From contig CACWLG010000017.1 of the NCBI GenBank assembly GCA_902761635.1, positions 1-60,328 of the forward strand: a stretch of DNA of 60,328 nt, in the 5' to 3' direction. The notes under the pieces were generated by a model. The model saw only the letters and a program-made list of their open reading frames with translations. It made no database searches and was not told the origin of the DNA. The position numbers and the translations under genes are program-made. How positions within the stretch are numbered: position 1 is the first letter of the stretch; each line of letters opens with the position of its first letter. This document shows positions 6,237-22,906 of this stretch, in pieces. The stretch comes from Oscillospiraceae bacterium (GTDB lineage Bacteria > Bacillota > Clostridia > Oscillospirales > Oscillospiraceae).

Positions 6237-7667
6237 TCAGAAGCCGCGGAGCGCGGCGCGGATGAGCTCCTCGGCGTCGACGGGGACGGTGGCTCCGGCG
6301 CCTGAAGCCGACTGCTCGCGCAGCATCTGCATACCGTAGCGCAGCATCTCCTCCGAGAGGGTGGTGCGCACGGTGCTGTCCTCGGCGCCGAACTCGATGG
6401 AGACCAGCATATGGGTTTCGCCGCTGGCATCCTGCGCCTCCATGGCGGTGACAAGGCAGGCGCCGGACATGTTGGTGGTGCCGGTCTTGAGGCCTACGAC
6501 GCCCGGGAGGTTATACAGCAGGGTGTTGGTGTTGGCGATCGTGACGCCGAAGCTCTCGAGCGTCACGGTCCTGAGGGAGGTGATGCGCGTCACCTCCGGG
6601 TAGGTGTCGAGAAGATAGCGCACCAGCTCGAACATGTCATAGGCGCTCATGCGGTTTTGCACCTTGGTCGCGGCCAGATTGTCCGTATAGACGGGCAGGC
6701 CGTTGCAGTTATAGAAGACTGTCCCCTCCGAGAGGCCGAGGGCCTGCGCCTTGCGGTTCATGCGCTCGACAAAGGCCGCCTCGCTCCCGCAGGTGTGCAC
6801 CGCGAGGGCTGTGGCGCTCTCGTTGCTGGAGAGGACCAGCATGGCGCACAGAAGCTCCGTCACATTCGAGACCTGGCCCGCCTCCATATAGATCACCCCG
6901 TCCGCCGTGCGGGAGAGCCTCGCTGCCTCCTCGGGGATGGTCACGCTGTCGGAGAGTTTGATCTCCCCGTCGGCAGCGGCGTCCATGATAATGATAAAGC
7001 TCATGAGCTTCGTGGTGCTCGCAATGGGCACGGAGAGCATCGGCTCCCAGGCGGTATAGATGGCGCCGGTCGTGGCGTCCCCGACAAGGCCGGAGTGGAT
7101 CTCATAATAAAACCCGCCCTCCCGCAGGGTGTCCAGGTCGATGGTGAAGCCCTCGCGGCTGTTGAGGCGCATGCTGCCGGCGGAGACCTCCAGGCTCAGA
7201 TCGAGCTGCATGGCAAGGTCCGTGAGGCTCATGAAGCAGTCCCGGTCGGAAGCGCCGGGGCTTAGAAAGCTCTGATAGTGAAGCTCCCGCCCGTCGAGCC
7301 AGATAAGATACAGAGCCAGGGGGCGCGTCGCGTATACGCCGCTGTCGGGAAAGGGCTCCCCCTCCCCGCCGATGGGCGTGTAGTCCTTGCCGGTCGTGAT
7401 ATAAACCTGGTCGTTTGTGATGCTCAGGTCAAAATGCCTGGCCGTTCCGCTGAGGGCCGCCGCCATATCCCGCAGGGAGACATAGCGGTTGTAGTCATAG
7501 CTGTAGTGGATGGTCCGGACGGTTTTGGGATCATTCCCGTCCACGGAGAGAAGCAGGTTTTCAAGCTGCTGATGGGTCACGGTCGCCTCGGCGCAGGCAG
7601 GGCGCGCAAGCGGGAGCACCAGGCACAGGACCAGCAGCAGCGCGGCAAGTTCCTTACGCACGTTCAT
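6237..7667 (-). CDS. D-alanyl-D-alanine carboxypeptidase (PBP5/DacF-like) with N-terminal copper-amine-oxidase-like repeats
   Basis: 476 residues with a Sec signal peptide (cleavage near ACAEA). All three penicillin-binding motifs are present: S217-T-T-K220 in IASTTKLMSF, S280-S-N282 in LSSNESA, and K394-T-G in LKTGTTN. It should trim the terminal D-Ala of peptidoglycan stem peptides outside the cell. Residues about 30-180 form an added region with two repeats resembling copper amine oxidase N-terminal wall-binding domains (YVSLRDMAAAL and CFMSLTDLAMQL), which many Clostridia use for cell-wall attachment. The C-terminal beta domain typical of DacA is short or absent. ATG 7667 follows GGAGGTGT inside the end of the upstream gene, a 14-base overlap that implies coupling. 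Confidence 0.92.
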   Translation of the reverse strand: MNVRKELAALLLVLCLVLPLARPACAEATVTHQQLENLLLSVDGNDPKTVRTIHYSYDYNRYVSLRDMAAALSGTARHFDLSITNDQVYITTGKDYTPIGGEGEPFPDSGVYATRPLALYLIWLDGRELHYQSFLSPGASDRDCFMSLTDLAMQLDLSLEVSAGSMRLNSREGFTIDLDTLREGGFYYEIHSGLVGDATTGAIYTAWEPMLSVPIASTTKLMSFIIIMDAAADGEIKLSDSVTIPEEAARLSRTADGVIYMEAGQVSNVTELLCAMLVLSSNESATALAVHTCGSEAAFVERMNRKAQALGLSEGTVFYNCNGLPVYTDNLAATKVQNRMSAYDMFELVRYLLDTYPEVTRITSLRTVTLESFGVTIANTNTLLYNLPGVVGLKTGTTNMSGACLVTAMEAQDASGETHMLVSIEFGAEDSTVRTTLSEEMLRYGMQMLREQSASGAGATVPVDAEELIRAALRGF

Positions 7668-8310
7668 ACACCTCCGCTCCCTCGGGTCTCAGCAGGACAA
7701 GAAACTGCCCGTCCATCAGATAGCGCACAGCCTCGCCGTCAAAGGAGATCGTCTCCCCATCGGCAAGATAGGTGCCGCTGCCGTCATACACCGCGCGCAT
7801 TTGCGAAAGCGGCGGCAGAAGGGCAGGGCCGTACTCGCGCATATAGTCCTCGGTGGACATACCGAGCACACGCCGGATACGTTCCTCGGCCTCCGCCGCC
7901 GTCTCGGGCGGGCGGCCCGAATCGGCGATGCGCAGGCGCAGAAGCTCCCGCAGGGCTTTGGCAAGACCGCGCTCGGCCGCGGTGCGGGCGCTCTCATAAT
8001 CTCCGTCCCGGATCTCGCGGCTCCAGCTCCCGTCCGGGGAGAGAGTGAGGCGCACCGTGACCGAAAGCGTCGGCAGGTACTGCGCGGCGGGGACCTGTTC
8101 GCCGAGAGCGGCGCGCTGCAGCCAGGTGTCGGCCCGGGTGCGGGCCGTGTCCGTCAGCTCCGCGCGCATCTGCCAGGCGCCCGCGAGGCGGGGATCCTCA
8201 CGCCGGCTCAGCTTCAGGGCCAGCAGCCCCGCGATCACGGCGAGCGCCAGGATCACGAGCAGCAGCAGGATCACGATGATCCGGCGGCCGCGGCTTTGTT
8301 TTTTTGTCAC
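7654..8310 (-). CDS. Membrane-anchored protein of unknown function
   Basis: 218 residues from a GTG start preceded by GGAAGGGGTG. A basic N-terminus and one transmembrane helix (about 10-31) anchor a mostly helical extracytoplasmic domain. The C-terminal part (YDGSGTYLADGETISFDGE and what follows) looks like short beta strands of a lipocalin-like or DUF-type barrel. No known family recognised. It lies between a MacB-like permease and dacF-like gene and overlaps the latter by 14 bases, so a role in envelope biogenesis is likely but unproven. Confidence 0.65.
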   Translation of the reverse strand: MTKKQSRGRRIIVILLLLVILALAVIAGLLALKLSRREDPRLAGAWQMRAELTDTARTRADTWLQRAALGEQVPAAQYLPTLSVTVRLTLSPDGSWSREIRDGDYESARTAAERGLAKALRELLRLRIADSGRPPETAAEAEERIRRVLGMSTEDYMREYGPALLPPLSQMRAVYDGSGTYLADGETISFDGEAVRYLMDGQFLVLLRPEGAEVYERA

Positions 8311-18115: not shown

Positions 18116-19345
18116 TTATTTTATTAAATCCTTCGTCGGGGTGCAGACGATGTTCGTCAGGATCTCGACCGCCTTGTCCATGTCCTCGGCGGTAATGTGC
18201 TCGTAAGGGCCGTGGAAGGCGGCGCCGCCTGTGCCGAGGTTCGGGCACGGCAGGCCGGCAAAGCTCAGGCGCGAGCCGTCCGTACCGCCGCGCACCGGTC
18301 TTGTCACAGGCTCAAGCCCTGCCTCCCGGATGGCCTTCTCCGCGCGGCGGATGATCTCCATGTGCCGGTGCAGGATTTCCGACATGTTGCGGTACTGCTC
18401 GCGCAGGGTAAGCTCCACGGTCCCCTCGCCGTACTCCGCGTTCAGCGCCCGCTCGATCTCGCGCAGCCTCTCGCAGCGCGCCTCAAAGCGCTCGCCGTCG
18501 TGGTCGCGGATGATGTATTTGAGCTCCGCCCGGCTCACATCGCCGGACATATCGGTCAGGTGGTAAAAGCCCTCATAGCCCTCCGTGCGGGCGGGGATCT
18601 CCTCGGGCGGGAGCATGGCGTTGAAGTGCATGGCCAGCAGCGACGCATTCACCATCACGTCCTTGGCAGAGCCGGGATGGACGCTTCTGCCCTGGATTTT
18701 GACGGTCGCCGCGGCGGCGTTGAAGGTCTCGTAATTGATCTCCTCCACCGGCCCGCCGTCCACCGTATAGGCAAAGCTTGCCCCGAAGCGGATGAAGTCG
18801 AGCTTTGCCGCTCCGTGGCCGATCTCCTCGTCCGGCGTGAAGCAGACGCCCACGGCGCAGTGGGGCCTGTCCCCCTTTATAAGCTCCTCGCAGACGGTCA
18901 TGATCTCCGCCACGCCCGCCTTGTCGTCCGCGCCGAGGAGCGTGGTGCCGTCGGTGGTGATGAGCGTCTTGCCCGCGTGCGCCCGGACATCGGGAAATTC
19001 CTCCGGCCGGAGAACAAGGCCGCTCTTGCCGAGAGCCAGCTCTCCCCCGTCATAGTTTTTATGGAGCTGCGGCCTGACCCCGGCGCCGGAAAAGGCCGGT
19101 GCCGTGTCGATGTGCGCAATGAGGCCGATCATCGGCTCGGCCTTCATCTCCGGGCTCGGCGGCAGAAAGCCGTAGGTATAGGCGCTGGGGTCGGTATAGA
19201 CCCGCAGCATGCCCATGTCCCGCATCTCATTGCGCAGAAGCCAGGCAAAGGCGTACTGCTTTTCCGTGCTGGGCGTGCCGACACCGTTCTCATCGCTCTG
19301 TGTATCCACCGCCGCATAGCGCAGCAGCCGTTCGTATGCTCTCAT
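18116..19345 (-). CDS. pepT: Peptidase T (tripeptide aminopeptidase)
   Basis: 409 residues, the normal length for M20B peptidases. Metal-binding and catalytic stretches are intact: LIAHIDTAPAFSG (His and Asp), LGADDKAG (bridging Asp), TPDEEIGHGA (catalytic Glu plus ligand), YTVDGGPVEEINYE and, near the end, GGTDGSRLSFAG. It removes the N-terminal residue from tripeptides in the cytoplasm with two zinc ions. It lies about 100 bases downstream of ylmH and may be cotranscribed. No upstream promoter was obvious in that short gap. Confidence 0.96.
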   Translation of the reverse strand: MRAYERLLRYAAVDTQSDENGVGTPSTEKQYAFAWLLRNEMRDMGMLRVYTDPSAYTYGFLPPSPEMKAEPMIGLIAHIDTAPAFSGAGVRPQLHKNYDGGELALGKSGLVLRPEEFPDVRAHAGKTLITTDGTTLLGADDKAGVAEIMTVCEELIKGDRPHCAVGVCFTPDEEIGHGAAKLDFIRFGASFAYTVDGGPVEEINYETFNAAAATVKIQGRSVHPGSAKDVMVNASLLAMHFNAMLPPEEIPARTEGYEGFYHLTDMSGDVSRAELKYIIRDHDGERFEARCERLREIERALNAEYGEGTVELTLREQYRNMSEILHRHMEIIRRAEKAIREAGLEPVTRPVRGGTDGSRLSFAGLPCPNLGTGGAAFHGPYEHITAEDMDKAVEILTNIVCTPTKDLIK

Positions 19346-19444: not shown

Positions 19445-20188
19445 CTATTTGCAGAGCTCCGCCGTGACGAACAGCCGCCCCTTGCGGGAGCTGCCGCCGA
19501 TCTCCGTGACGCGGCCTTTGCCCGTGCCGCGCAGGGACAGCACGTCCCCTTCCCTGACGGGCGCGTCGGGCTTGAGGCACTCGGCATAGTTGAGGCTCAG
19601 GGCTCCGAGGGCGATTTGCCGCGCCGTCTCCGTGCGCGAGAGGTGGAAAAGCCCCGCCGCCACCGCGTCCAGCCGCGGACTCATGACGGTGAAGCGCCGC
19701 TCCTCGCTGTGCTTTTCCCGACGCGGGACAGCTTCCAGCGGGATCTGCCCGGTCTTGACGCCGAAGCGGCCCACCTTGTCGATGCTCAGCAGATGGCGCA
19801 GAACGCTGGGTTGACATAACGCAATTGCCTCCGACCCGTCCACCAGGATATCCCCGACCCACTCGCGCCCGACGCCCATGCCGAGGATGGCGCCCATATA
19901 GTCCCGGTGGCCGGGGCTGCCGAAGGCGGCCGTCAGGTGCAGGGCACAGATATGCTCGCCGAGGTCCAGCCCGTCCTCCTCCATCCAGTCCGGCAGGAAG
20001 AAGGCCATGGTACGCTCGGCGTCGGGATAGCCGCCGGAGAAGACCATGGAGACGCCGCGCAGGGCGGGGTCATGCTCGAGGGCATAGCGCTCCGCCGGAG
20101 TGAGAAAGCCCGTGTTCGCGGGCACACCCCGCTGCTCTGTGCGGCGGGCGAGGTCCCGGGCGCGTTTAAGGATCGCTTCGTTTTCCAT
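19445..20188 (-). CDS. ylmH: YlmH-like S4-domain RNA-binding protein
   Basis: 247 residues. Residues about 1-160 match the YlmH N-terminal region (RYALEHDPALRGVSMVFSGGYPDAER is spread over its core, with ILGMGVGREWVGDI). Residues about 175-245 are an S4 RNA-binding domain (SPRLDAVAAGLFHLSRTET, then REGDVLSLRGTGKGRV). B. subtilis YlmH binds the 50S subunit and has been reported to act in ribosome-associated quality control like RqcP. It is usually in the ylm cluster near divIVA, whereas here it overlaps the 3' end of a translational GTPase-nuclease gene by 23 bases, which implies translational coupling and a shared ribosomal role. Confidence 0.9.
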   Translation of the reverse strand: MENEAILKRARDLARRTEQRGVPANTGFLTPAERYALEHDPALRGVSMVFSGGYPDAERTMAFFLPDWMEEDGLDLGEHICALHLTAAFGSPGHRDYMGAILGMGVGREWVGDILVDGSEAIALCQPSVLRHLLSIDKVGRFGVKTGQIPLEAVPRREKHSEERRFTVMSPRLDAVAAGLFHLSRTETARQIALGALSLNYAECLKPDAPVREGDVLSLRGTGKGRVTEIGGSSRKGRLFVTAELCK

Positions 20189-22766
20189 CTCTGAGCCTCG
20201 TTTTATGGGCGTTGAAGTTGGTGCGCTTGAGGACCTCCTCGATCTGCGAGAGGGCCCACTCCACCTCCCCCTTGAATTCGCCGGAGGAGCAGCGAAGCAC
20301 GCCGGAGCGCAGGGCTGACAGGCGTATGAGGTTATCGCTTGTGACCACGCGGACGGTATAGTTTCTGCCGATCTCGTTCACGATACGCTCGATGTACGCA
20401 TCGCCCGTCTCCCCGTCCTTTGTGAAGGCGACGGCGATGTTGTGGTAATCCGAACGGGAGCCGGGATTGCCCGGGGTGCGGAAGCCGTCGAAGACCAGCA
20501 CAAGTTTTGCGCCCGTGAAGCCCGCATAGTCCGAGAGGATGTCCATTAGCTTCTCCCGCGCCAGGTCCAGCCGCTCGGCCGCGAGAGCCTTGAGCTCGTC
20601 CCAGGCGAAGATGAGATTATAGCCGTCGACAATGATATGCTCCTTTCGGCCTGTGAGCTGCGAAACCTCGTTCACAGCGGCGTTCAGCTGCCGGGCCCGG
20701 TATTCCGGGCGGCGGATGGGGCCGAACTCCCGCTCCATGATGGCCTCGAGCTCCCGCTCGTCGATATCGAAGCTGCGAAGCCGGGGCGCGGCCTGCGCCG
20801 GCTGCTCCTCCCGCTTCGGCTTGAGCACGGCCTCCAGGTGCATGTACTGCGGCACCTGGCTCCAGTGTACGTTCATCCCCGCCCCGTGGGCGCAGAAGAC
20901 CGAGTCGGCGGGGTTATCCTGATCCCGCTCCGGGTCGTAGCCGCAGGATGAGACGATGCGGCTCTGCTCCGTGCAGGGGCGGTAGCCGCAGGGCGTCAGG
21001 CTCAGGCGGCCGCGGCCGTGGGAATAGGCCAGCAGCTCTTCCATATAATTGCCGAGCTTTGCCGCGGGAGCCGAGCCCTCCAGCCGCAGGAACTCGCCCC
21101 GCTCCTCCGGAGAGGAGAAGGCGCCGTCCATGGCGCGGATATCGCTGATGGCGCGGCCGATCTCGGCCGCAGGCACCTCCAGCGCAAAGCTGTACCACGG
21201 CTCGAGCAGGACGGATTCCGCCTGCATGAGGCCCTGCCGTACGGCGCGGTAGGTGGCCTCGCGGAAGTCGCCGCCCTCGGTGTGCTTGACGTGGGCACGC
21301 CCCGCGGCAAGGCTGATGCGCATATCGGTAATGGGTGCGCCCGTGAGCACGCCCCTGTGCTGCTTTTCCGCAAGGTGCGTGAGGATCAGGCGCTGCCAGT
21401 TGCGGTCCAGCGCGTCCTCGGGACAGATGCTGTCAAAGCTCAGGCCGCTGCCGGCGGGCAGGGGCTCGAGCAGCAGGTGCACCTCGGCATAGTGGCGCAG
21501 AGGCTCAAAGTGGCCCACGCCCTCAACGGTGTTTTTGATCGTCTCCCGGTACAGGATACGCCCGGTGTCAAGCTCCACCTCGGTGTCAAAGCGCTCCCGG
21601 ACGAGGCTTTTGAAGATTTCGGCCTGGACCCGGCCCATGAGCTGCACGCTGATCTCGCGCGCCTGCCCGTCCCAGAGGACGTGAAGCTGCGGGTCCTCCT
21701 GATCGAGCTGCATGAGCTTCGGCAGCAGGACCATGGGGTCCGTGCCCTTCTCAAGGCACAGGCGGTAGCTCATCACCGGCTCCAGAACCGCGGCCTCCGC
21801 ATCCGCCGCAGCGCCGAGGCCCTGGCCCGGCCTGGTCCCGCTGAGGCCCAGGGCGGCGCAGACCCAGCCCGCGCCGACCTCCTCCGCCGTTTCATACTTC
21901 ACGCCGGAGTAGACGCGGAGCTGGCTGATCTTTTCCTCCGCCGCCTCCCCGGCGGCGTCTTGATAGCGCAGGAGAGTGCGAACCTTCAGGCTCCCGCCCG
22001 TGACCTTGAGCCAAGTGAGGCGGTTGCTCTGGGTATCGCGGGAAATTTTATACACCCGGGCGGCAAAGTCCGGCCCGTACACGGGCTTTGGCGCATAGAG
22101 CCGGAGGGCCTCCAGAAATTCGGCCACGCCCTCGGTCCTGAGGCCTGAGCCGAAAAAGCAGGGGTAGAGCCTGCGCCCCTCGACCAGCGCCCGGATCGTT
22201 TCCGGGCCGACTTCGCCTGTGGCAAGGTATTCCTCCATGGCTCCCTCGTCGCAGAGGGCGAGGTTTTCATGCAGGGCGTCCCCCACGGCGCCGAAATCGA
22301 CGCAGTGATCCGAAAGGCGGGCGGTGAGCTCCGCCATCAGCGCGTCCCGCCCGGGAACGGGCAGGTCCATCTTCGTCACAAAGAGGAAGGTGGGCACGGC
22401 GTAGCGCTCCAGGAGCTTCCAGAGCGTCTCGGTATGGGCCTGGACCCCGTCCGTGCCGCTGATGACCAGCACCGCCGCATCCAATACGCGCAGGGTGCGC
22501 TCGGCCTCGGCGGAGAAATCCACATGGCCCGGAGTGTCCAGCAGGGTGAGGCTCCCCTCCCCCAGGGGCAGGATGGCCTGCTTTGAGAAAATGGTGATGC
22601 CCCGCTGCCGCTCCAGGCTGTGGGTATCCAGGAAGCTGTCGCGGTGATCGACCCTTCCCAGCGTCTTCAGTTTTCCGGAGAGGTAGAGCATGGCCTCGGA
22701 CAGGGTAGTCTTGCCCGCGTCCACATGGGCCAGGATGCCCAGGACTGTATTGTTCTCATTCATCAT
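20166..22766 (-). CDS. TetM/EF-G-like ribosomal GTPase fused to a C-terminal NYN (YacP/Rae1-type) nuclease domain
   Basis: 866 residues. GTPase motifs: G1 AHVDAGKTT (13-21), G2 RGIT (55-58), G3 DTPGH (77-81), G4 TKMD (131-134). Domains II-V follow to about residue 690 and read like Tet(M)/Tet(O) ribosomal protection proteins, including SYRLCLEKGTDPMVLLPKLM and the domain IV region near EPWYSFALEVPAAEIGRAIS. Residues about 709-866 are a complete NYN domain: IIVDGYNLIFAW (Asp714), VFDGFRTPG (Asp760), ETGDAYIER (Asp789), VVTSDNLIR (Asp811), matching YacP. B. subtilis Rae1 (YacP) cuts mRNA in the ribosomal A site, where EF-G-like factors also bind. It is unlikely to be a plain tetracycline-resistance gene. 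ATG 22766 or 22763. Confidence 0.88.
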   Translation of the reverse strand: MMNENNTVLGILAHVDAGKTTLSEAMLYLSGKLKTLGRVDHRDSFLDTHSLERQRGITIFSKQAILPLGEGSLTLLDTPGHVDFSAEAERTLRVLDAAVLVISGTDGVQAHTETLWKLLERYAVPTFLFVTKMDLPVPGRDALMAELTARLSDHCVDFGAVGDALHENLALCDEGAMEEYLATGEVGPETIRALVEGRRLYPCFFGSGLRTEGVAEFLEALRLYAPKPVYGPDFAARVYKISRDTQSNRLTWLKVTGGSLKVRTLLRYQDAAGEAAEEKISQLRVYSGVKYETAEEVGAGWVCAALGLSGTRPGQGLGAAADAEAAVLEPVMSYRLCLEKGTDPMVLLPKLMQLDQEDPQLHVLWDGQAREISVQLMGRVQAEIFKSLVRERFDTEVELDTGRILYRETIKNTVEGVGHFEPLRHYAEVHLLLEPLPAGSGLSFDSICPEDALDRNWQRLILTHLAEKQHRGVLTGAPITDMRISLAAGRAHVKHTEGGDFREATYRAVRQGLMQAESVLLEPWYSFALEVPAAEIGRAISDIRAMDGAFSSPEERGEFLRLEGSAPAAKLGNYMEELLAYSHGRGRLSLTPCGYRPCTEQSRIVSSCGYDPERDQDNPADSVFCAHGAGMNVHWSQVPQYMHLEAVLKPKREEQPAQAAPRLRSFDIDERELEAIMEREFGPIRRPEYRARQLNAAVNEVSQLTGRKEHIIVDGYNLIFAWDELKALAAERLDLAREKLMDILSDYAGFTGAKLVLVFDGFRTPGNPGSRSDYHNIAVAFTKDGETGDAYIERIVNEIGRNYTVRVVTSDNLIRLSALRSGVLRCSSGEFKGEVEWALSQIEEVLKRTNFNAHKTRLRDGKRSDP

Positions 22767-22906
22767 AAGCGCATTTTACCAGCTTTTTCCCAAAGAATCA
22801 ATCGTAAATCCGTCCGCGCGGTCCCATGTTATGTAACCTTTTGCACATTGCATGCAAAAAGAAATACAATTTTCTGAAACTTTGTCTATTATTTTTGTAA
22901 AGATCA

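Follow-up and report, generated by a model that had tools for sequence, protein, structure and literature searches.

A one-frame translational GTPase-NYN nuclease fusion that has probably replaced Rae1 in many genomes of the class Clostridia

Gene structure and domain order

We analysed the window, meaning the whole stretch of 60,328 nucleotides of contig CACWLG010000017.1, and focused on a gene at 20166..22766 that encodes a translational GTPase fused to an NYN nuclease domain of the YacP (Rae1) type. The gene is a single unbroken frame of 866 codons on the minus strand, read from 22766 to 20166, and the plus strand of the interval holds stops. The first-pass annotation of this DNA had claimed an intact frame joining a complete GTPase to a complete NYN domain, with the strand unstated; the claim was confirmed, on the minus strand. 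The motif positions that it gave (G1 at residues 13-21, G3 at 77-81 and G4 at 131-134) were correct, and the acidic residues that it named (D714, D760, D789 and D811) were all present. The features of the gene are as follows.

20166..22766, minus strand: whole gene, translational GTPase-NYN fusion, 866 amino acids (aa) (intact frame and Pfam)
22089..22745, minus strand: G domain, residues 8-226, with G1 AHVDAGKTT, the RGITI switch, DTPGH and TKMD intact (Pfam PF00009, 2.6e-44; motifs in 50 aligned fusions)
21477..21515, minus strand: domain IV tip loop 1, residues 418-430, GHFEPLRHYAEVH, near-invariant in 50 fusions, common to unfused relatives and absent from tetracycline (Tet)-signature proteins
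21264..21287, minus strand: domain IV tip loop 3, residues 494-501, KHTEGGDF, replacing YSPVST of Tet proteins (alignment, variants counted)
20964..21212, minus strand: domain V (EF-G C-terminus), residues 519-601 (Pfam PF00679, 1.5e-14)
20646..20816, minus strand: linker, residues 651-707, predicted largely disordered from the predicted local distance difference test (pLDDT), with the highest nonsynonymous rate (dN, computed on residues 646-707) of three regions
20211..20636, minus strand: NYN_YacP (Rae1-type) nuclease domain, residues 711-852, with the acids D714, D760, D789 and D811 plus N717 and E793 (Pfam PF05991, 3.2e-39; PDB 5mq8/5mq9, 1.1e-19; invariant in 50/50 aligned fusions)
20301-20336, minus strand: diverged stretch of the nuclease in the window's clade, residues 811-822 (alignment)

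Pfam also placed EF-G domain IV at residues 402-516, and domains II and III gave weaker matches, slightly below their respective cut-offs. The same one-frame fusion was carried by 17/17 relatives from named assemblies, at 53-96% identity, so it is not an assembly artefact, and a chance or misassembled fusion was rejected. Relatives of the source bacterium are inhabitants of animal guts.

The GTPase half

By sequence, the solved structures closest to the GTPase half were TetO, followed by EF-G. The best NCBIfam model for the window protein was tet_protect, on which it scored 375 bits, the cut-off being 775; the positive controls, two Tet-signature proteins of the same survey, both passed (L146, 853 bits; L152, 878 bits; G, L and f codes are our handles for genomes, loci and families). 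On the same model, three unfused relatives of the window protein scored 401 to 456 bits, and a third group was represented by two Tet-like proteins with 503 and 518. The score of the window protein also fell short with the EF-G model TIGR00484 (248 bits, cut-off 659).

The domain-IV tip was almost fixed in the 50 aligned fusions, comprising GHFEPLRHYAEVH, GVLTG and a loop 3 of the KHTxGGDF type. Loop 3 read KHTEGGDF in 37 of these, KHTQGGDF in eight, KHTDGGDF in four and QHTQGGDF in one. The 23 unfused relatives carried KHTEGGDF (10), the same motif with S, C, N or T in fourth place (12), or KHTEGGDL (1). All five Tet-signature proteins had YSPVST followed by PADF or PSDF, a type of loop 3 that the window protein lacks. 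With the tet_protect cut-off missed, the tip loop of another kind and the positive controls passing, Tet membership was rejected. The first-pass term 'TetM-like' thus holds for the fold and fails for the Tet subfamily, on the domain-IV tip and the family scores. Judged by sequence, the GTPase half belongs to a subfamily of its own, marked by a domain-IV tip that hardly varies.

The G motifs, the histidine of DTPGH included, were conserved across the 50 aligned fusions. Two further fused proteins, L133 (genome G316) and L135 (G453), had an altered P-loop, ASADxGKTT, and sat on a very long branch; their GTPase function may have changed. In addition, the record of a fused GTPase-NYN protein of Agathobacter rectalis (L171, NZ_CP143948.1) names it a tetracycline resistance protein of the TetM/TetW/TetO/TetS family, likely an over-annotation.

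The nuclease half

The first-pass annotation had proposed a search of the C-terminal region against NYN/YacP profiles, and this search returned a strong YacP match (135 bits, cut-off 24.6, E 3.2e-39). Against solved structures, the only significant matches of the NYN half were to Bacillus subtilis YacP (5mq8 and 5mq9, E 1.1e-19), the other three rows having E of about 0.5. Of the residues invariant in the fusions, D714, D760, D789, D811 and E793 were also invariant in 26 separate YacP proteins, this comparison using 26 of 29 proteins and excluding three placed on the fused side of the tree. Loss of the acids in homologues, which the first-pass annotation had named as evidence that would count against it, was not seen. 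A decayed nuclease was rejected on the invariant acids and a low ratio of nonsynonymous to synonymous substitution (dN/dS).

In the window's clade, the 17 NYN domains sat on a long branch (0.98) with all catalytic residues retained. At positions fixed both in the remaining 43 fusions and in the 26 separate proteins, this clade carried chiefly Q815R in 17/17 and A788G in 13/17, besides changes at other residues of 814-820.

Linker, structure model and selection

The AlphaFold model of the whole chain had a mean pLDDT of 77.9 and a predicted template modelling score (pTM) of 0.57, and consisted of a GTPase part and an NYN part joined via residues 651-707. The pLDDT was below 50 at residues 651-669 and 681-707, and a flexible linker of about 57 residues is predicted. 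The 50 rows listed by a Foldseek search of the model were all EF-G/EF-2-type chains, as the sequence predicts. Between the window protein and L014, dN/dS was about 0.08 for the NYN domain, 0.14 for the GTPase and 0.27 for the linker. Six further pairs gave the same dN order, with the linker highest. By this measure on aligned sequences, both halves are under purifying selection.

Distribution of fused and separate forms

The first-pass annotation had called for a survey of Clostridia for standalone yacP in genomes carrying the fusion. We ran it on class samples of 393 genomes for YacP and 386 for the subfamily GTPase, the class name Clostridia being inferred from named relatives. The fusion was the sole YacP match in the genome from which the window comes (85.8% complete), so that a normal yacP in addition to the fusion, another observation held to speak against the first-pass idea, was not found there. 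Within the window's family, YacP occurred in 73/120 genomes with a single match per genome, and 69 of these matches lay in frames of at least 814 aa; the other four frames were 125, 160, 266 and 602 aa long, at least three of these at a contig end. Across the class, YacP occurred in 250/393 genomes. Among the matches listed, the frames were mostly either about 169-216 aa (separate) or about 820 aa upward (fused), with few intermediate, and some family and class match rows reported a stop within the matched stretch.

More than one YacP match was found in 5/250 genomes. One of these, G401, held both forms intact, fused and separate, the only such genome among the 393; G487 held the fusion and short yacP pieces, and the second matches in G238, G292 and G326 were all below the cut-off. 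The subfamily GTPase was present in about 160/386 genomes, usually once per genome, and was unfused in 25 and fused or presumed fused in 135, the latter figure obtained by subtraction, with frame lengths covered for only part of the weaker matches. G493 (L137) was removed from the unfused set because the tree puts L137 on the Tet-like side, and G186 (unfused) and G321 (Tet-like) were assigned by score alone. Frames of fused length also occurred in other families of the phylum, among the matches listed.

A mobile resistance gene was rejected, since the two fused genes examined on plasmid records (252 and 518 kilobases) lay on records typed as non-mobilizable; two of the 23 plasmid records with an NYN match were examined. 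Separately, a complete fused gene was present on each of two scaffolds of human faecal origin that are recorded, unverified, as 'Bacteriophage sp.' (L172, MT835514.1; L173, MT835563.1), perhaps bacterial DNA filed as phage or a prophage flank.

Replacement of separate yacP at the rlmB-sigH site

The names RqcH, SigH, RlmB, MrnC and pepT are applied to genes here presumptively, in part by similarity. At the separate YacP loci, the next gene was a sigH-type sigma factor in 28/29 (the exception being L080) and the previous gene was rlmB in 24. No fused locus had a sigH-type gene within four genes, and the fusion thus lies outside the rlmB-sigH placement. One fused gene, L108 in G309, lay about 3.5 kilobases from an rlmB-sigH pair on the same strand, and was the only fused locus near the old site among the loci examined.

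We searched for the old site in 19 fused genomes and in a control, G361; a sigH match was found in 15 of the fused genomes and rlmB lay in the flank of eight, in which the site was judged (G234, G165, G137, G416, G266, G309, G203 and G141). The first seven yielded no yacP in the gap from rlmB to sigH, which measured 23 to 535 bases; the gap in G416 gave one 13-residue match at E 0.006. In G141 (L157), a tblastn piece matching residues 50-131 of separate YacP lay between the two genes. The control retained an intact rlmB-yacP-sigH arrangement. Two more genomes had been selected for their extra YacP matches, unlike these eight: in G487 (L044/L048) two short yacP pieces remained between rlmB and sigH, with the middle gone and a stop present, and in G401 an intact yacP stood at the site. 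An intact separate yacP was therefore absent at 8/8 unselected old sites and at 9/10 overall. Because the unselected sites lacked an intact yacP and both intact forms occurred together in 1/393 genomes, the fusion has probably replaced Rae1 in many genomes of the class.

Phylogeny and origin

In a GTPase tree of 78 rows, all 42 fused rows formed one clade with a Shimodaira-Hasegawa-like approximate likelihood ratio support of 99, nested among 23 unfused proteins and apart from the Tet and Tet-like ones; the tree was built by a quick method with a long-branch warning, and left out 15 of 93 rows that were near-copies, duplicated or incomplete. The NYN tree, from which eight duplicate or partial loci were omitted, comprised 89 rows and split fused from separate YacP with support of 100/95. 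Three separate proteins fell on the fused side, namely L090 and L093 (sigH adjoining, as at the classical site) and L080 (sigH not adjoining). A single clade of all fused NYN domains was not rejected by the approximately unbiased test (p-AU 0.33). On these trees, one fusion event followed by loss of the separate gene is the simplest account. Fused and separate forms coexisted within family codes such as f22, f23 and f47, among the matches listed, which suggests some transfer or differential loss.

The L080 protein belongs to G327, which carries this separate NYN gene away from the rlmB-sigH site and also, elsewhere, an unfused GTPase (L126), the other GTPase frames listed for family code f28 being of fused length. 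A secondary split is possible in this genome.

Neighbouring genes and upstream region

The features adjoining the fusion in the window are as follows.

19445..20188, minus strand: ylmH-like gene downstream (PF17774 YlmH_RBD), its start overlapping the fusion's end by 23 bases
18116..19345, minus strand: M20-family peptidase, the next gene, kept in the window's clade
22773..22801, minus strand: promoter-like site TTGATT-17-TAAAAT with TG (extended -10), its end 7 bases upstream of the ATG (identified by consensus match only)

We take the peptidase to be pepT-like. The order of the fusion followed by same-strand ylmH-like and pepT-like genes was shared by the window and L013-L028. No conserved neighbourhood of the fusion was found across the class within four genes, ylmH and pepT adjoining it in the window's clade only, and a class-wide conserved neighbourhood was rejected. 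The window's ylmH-like gene was its genome's only YlmH_RBD match. The same genome contained transfer-messenger RNA (tmRNA) and an NFACT protein, presumably of the RqcH type. A role of YlmH in ribosome-associated quality control (RQC) has been published for B. subtilis (PMC11317155). Through ylmH, NFACT and tmRNA, the fusion gene is linked by association to ribosome rescue. In a different family, an unfused subfamily GTPase had a divergently oriented ylmH-like gene as its neighbour (L123 in G147, 7340-8110, plus strand), which may be a second case of association between the two.

No clear ribosome-binding site was visible upstream of the fusion ATG (22761-22801). Given this and the promoter-like site 7 bases before the ATG, the messenger RNA (mRNA) of the fusion could be leaderless. 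A tiny open reading frame (22774-22763, minus strand) overlaps the fusion start. No Rfam family was found in the window at gathering scores.

Proposed function and alternatives

EF-G-fold proteins bind the factor site of the ribosome. Rae1 is described as a translation-dependent endonuclease of the ribosomal A site (PMC6613710, PMC10100781). The first-pass proposal of one chain acting at the A site fits both halves of the window protein, with 'TetM-like' limited to the fold. On balance we favour the fusion as the lineage's Rae1 mounted on its own ribosome-binding GTPase, a GTP-dependent factor that would cut mRNA in the A site. Its probable role is to clear ribosomes, not to confer tetracycline resistance.

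In the scheme that we propose, the GTPase would bind the factor site of a ribosome with an open or blocked A site, and the specialised domain-IV tip would occupy the decoding centre and read or clear it. GTP hydrolysis would then withdraw domain IV, after which the NYN domain, on its flexible tether of about 57 residues, would enter the A site and cut the mRNA. The ribosome would then be released through non-stop rescue and quality control, with hand-over to tmRNA and RQC. A sequential order would be needed, as the nuclease would have to compete with domain IV for the site. The cutting of A-site mRNA is proposed by analogy with Rae1 of B. subtilis; delivery of the nuclease to the A site by the GTPase, the order of events, the hand-over and the coupling of GTP hydrolysis to cutting are likewise proposals. 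In its fullest form the idea is tentative, though we think it possible: a GTP-clocked mRNA cutter whose domain-IV tip probes or clears the A site before its own tethered nuclease is released, which arose once, replaced Rae1 in much of Clostridia and is encoded with YlmH in the window's clade.

Several observations weigh against this interpretation. The model, at its pTM, does not fix the position of the NYN domain relative to the GTPase. The long branch and the changes at otherwise conserved residues in the window's clade suggest that its nuclease may have a specificity other than Rae1's. About 95 sampled genomes that are not in the fused set had YacP but gave no match to the subfamily GTPase (frames partly covered), so Rae1 chemistry does not require this GTPase as a partner. 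Unfused GTPase and YacP occurred together in 19/25 genomes (20/26 before removal of G493); as 13 of the 25 belong to one family, f38, the co-occurrence signal is weak, and it was rejected as proof of a partnership. The fusion-ylmH order was not found in other fused loci at the sensitivity used, the flanks of L030-L042 being short. At the old site, 11/19 fused genomes were not judgeable, seven with sigH but no rlmB in the flank and four, the window's genome included, with no sigH match, and G501 showed a weak NYN-like match near sigH (E 0.002, 22% identity). The two intact copies of G401 also belong on this side.

The chief rival is replacement of Rae1 without coupling, in which the NYN domain performs ordinary Rae1 cleavage, the GTPase does its own job and the fusion merely co-localises them. 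Both parts do occur apart in the class, as an unfused GTPase of 645-700 aa with tip loops of the same kind and as separate YacP, and a linker predicted to be disordered and evolving fastest is what a loose tether would show. However, a single origin kept across a large part of the class, together with loss of separate yacP, suggests an advantage of the single chain, and the separate GTPase and YacP co-occur inconsistently. We regard this rival as rather doubtful.

A tetracycline-protection protein aided by an RNase, as suggested by Atkinson 2015, would use domain IV to dislodge the drug and the nuclease to assist resistance. TetO as the closest solved relative, tet_protect as the best NCBIfam model and the label of the A. 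rectalis fusion all point this way. However, the score less than half the cut-off, set against the two passing Tet-signature proteins, and the replacement of YSPVST by KHTEGGDF argue against it, as does occurrence in about 160/386 genomes of the class, usually as a single copy, unlike an acquired resistance gene. Moreover, G316 holds a Tet-signature protein (L148) besides its fusion (L133). We consider this explanation improbable.

Maturation of stable RNA (rRNA or tRNA) by the NYN domain on ribosomal particles, with the GTPase as an assembly or checkpoint factor, is in line with suggestions made early on for the NYN family (cited in PMC4342817) and with the rlmB-type gene, for an rRNA methyltransferase (PMC6613710), that adjoins most separate yacP genes. 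It is very improbable given that an mRNA target of B. subtilis Rae1, S1025, has been mapped (PMC11780869) and that Rae1 is described as dependent on translation (PMC10100781).

If the favoured interpretation is true, a protein fused or presumed fused in 135/386 genomes of the class would be the lineage's A-site mRNA decay factor. Resistome annotation would change, as at least one record labels the fusion a tetracycline-resistance protein. The system would also offer a direct test of cooperation between a translational GTPase and an A-site nuclease, both parts of which also occur naturally apart.

Comparison with known systems

Atkinson 2015 (PMC4342817) reports a Tet-like GTPase plus NYN architecture in ten Clostridiales species and suggests RNase-linked resistance, so the architecture is not new. 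The window protein, with a Tet-like GTPase and a YacP NYN domain in one chain, is a member of these clostridial 'Tet proteins with NYN domain', and the first-pass expectation that related proteins already exist was borne out in print since 2015. The two accounts differ in that the 2015 paper treats them as Tet proteins with a suggested role in resistance, whereas our data point to a separate subfamily that probably replaced Rae1. The fusion is real and widespread; its architecture, known since 2015, has probably been misread as resistance. We found no characterisation of the fusion or of a check-then-cut mechanism in the open-access literature searched, and the main Rae1 papers may discuss the fusion; as far as these searches reach, the new part is the evidence for replacement of Rae1 and for a GTPase subfamily of its own.

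With the Tet ribosomal protection proteins (TetM, TetO; NF012153, NF033148) the window protein shares the EF-G-like domain order and intact G motifs; its domain-IV tip is different, it has an additional conserved tail ahead of the linker, and its scores are far under the family cut-offs. With EF-G (TIGR00484) it shares the G domain and domains II-V, and differs in score and tip loops. The unfused GTPases of 645-700 aa with a KHTxGGDF-type tip (L109-L126, L130-L132, L134 and L138) have the same subfamily, kind of tip loop and tail in common with it, but carry no NYN domain, and the fused clade is nested among them. Finally, Rae1/YacP of B. subtilis (PF05991; 5mq8, 5mq9) belongs to the same NYN family and has all the catalytic acids. 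It stands alone as a protein of about 170 aa encoded beside rlmB (yacO) and, in the loci examined here, sigH, whereas in the fusion the NYN domain forms the C-terminus of an 866-aa GTPase encoded elsewhere.

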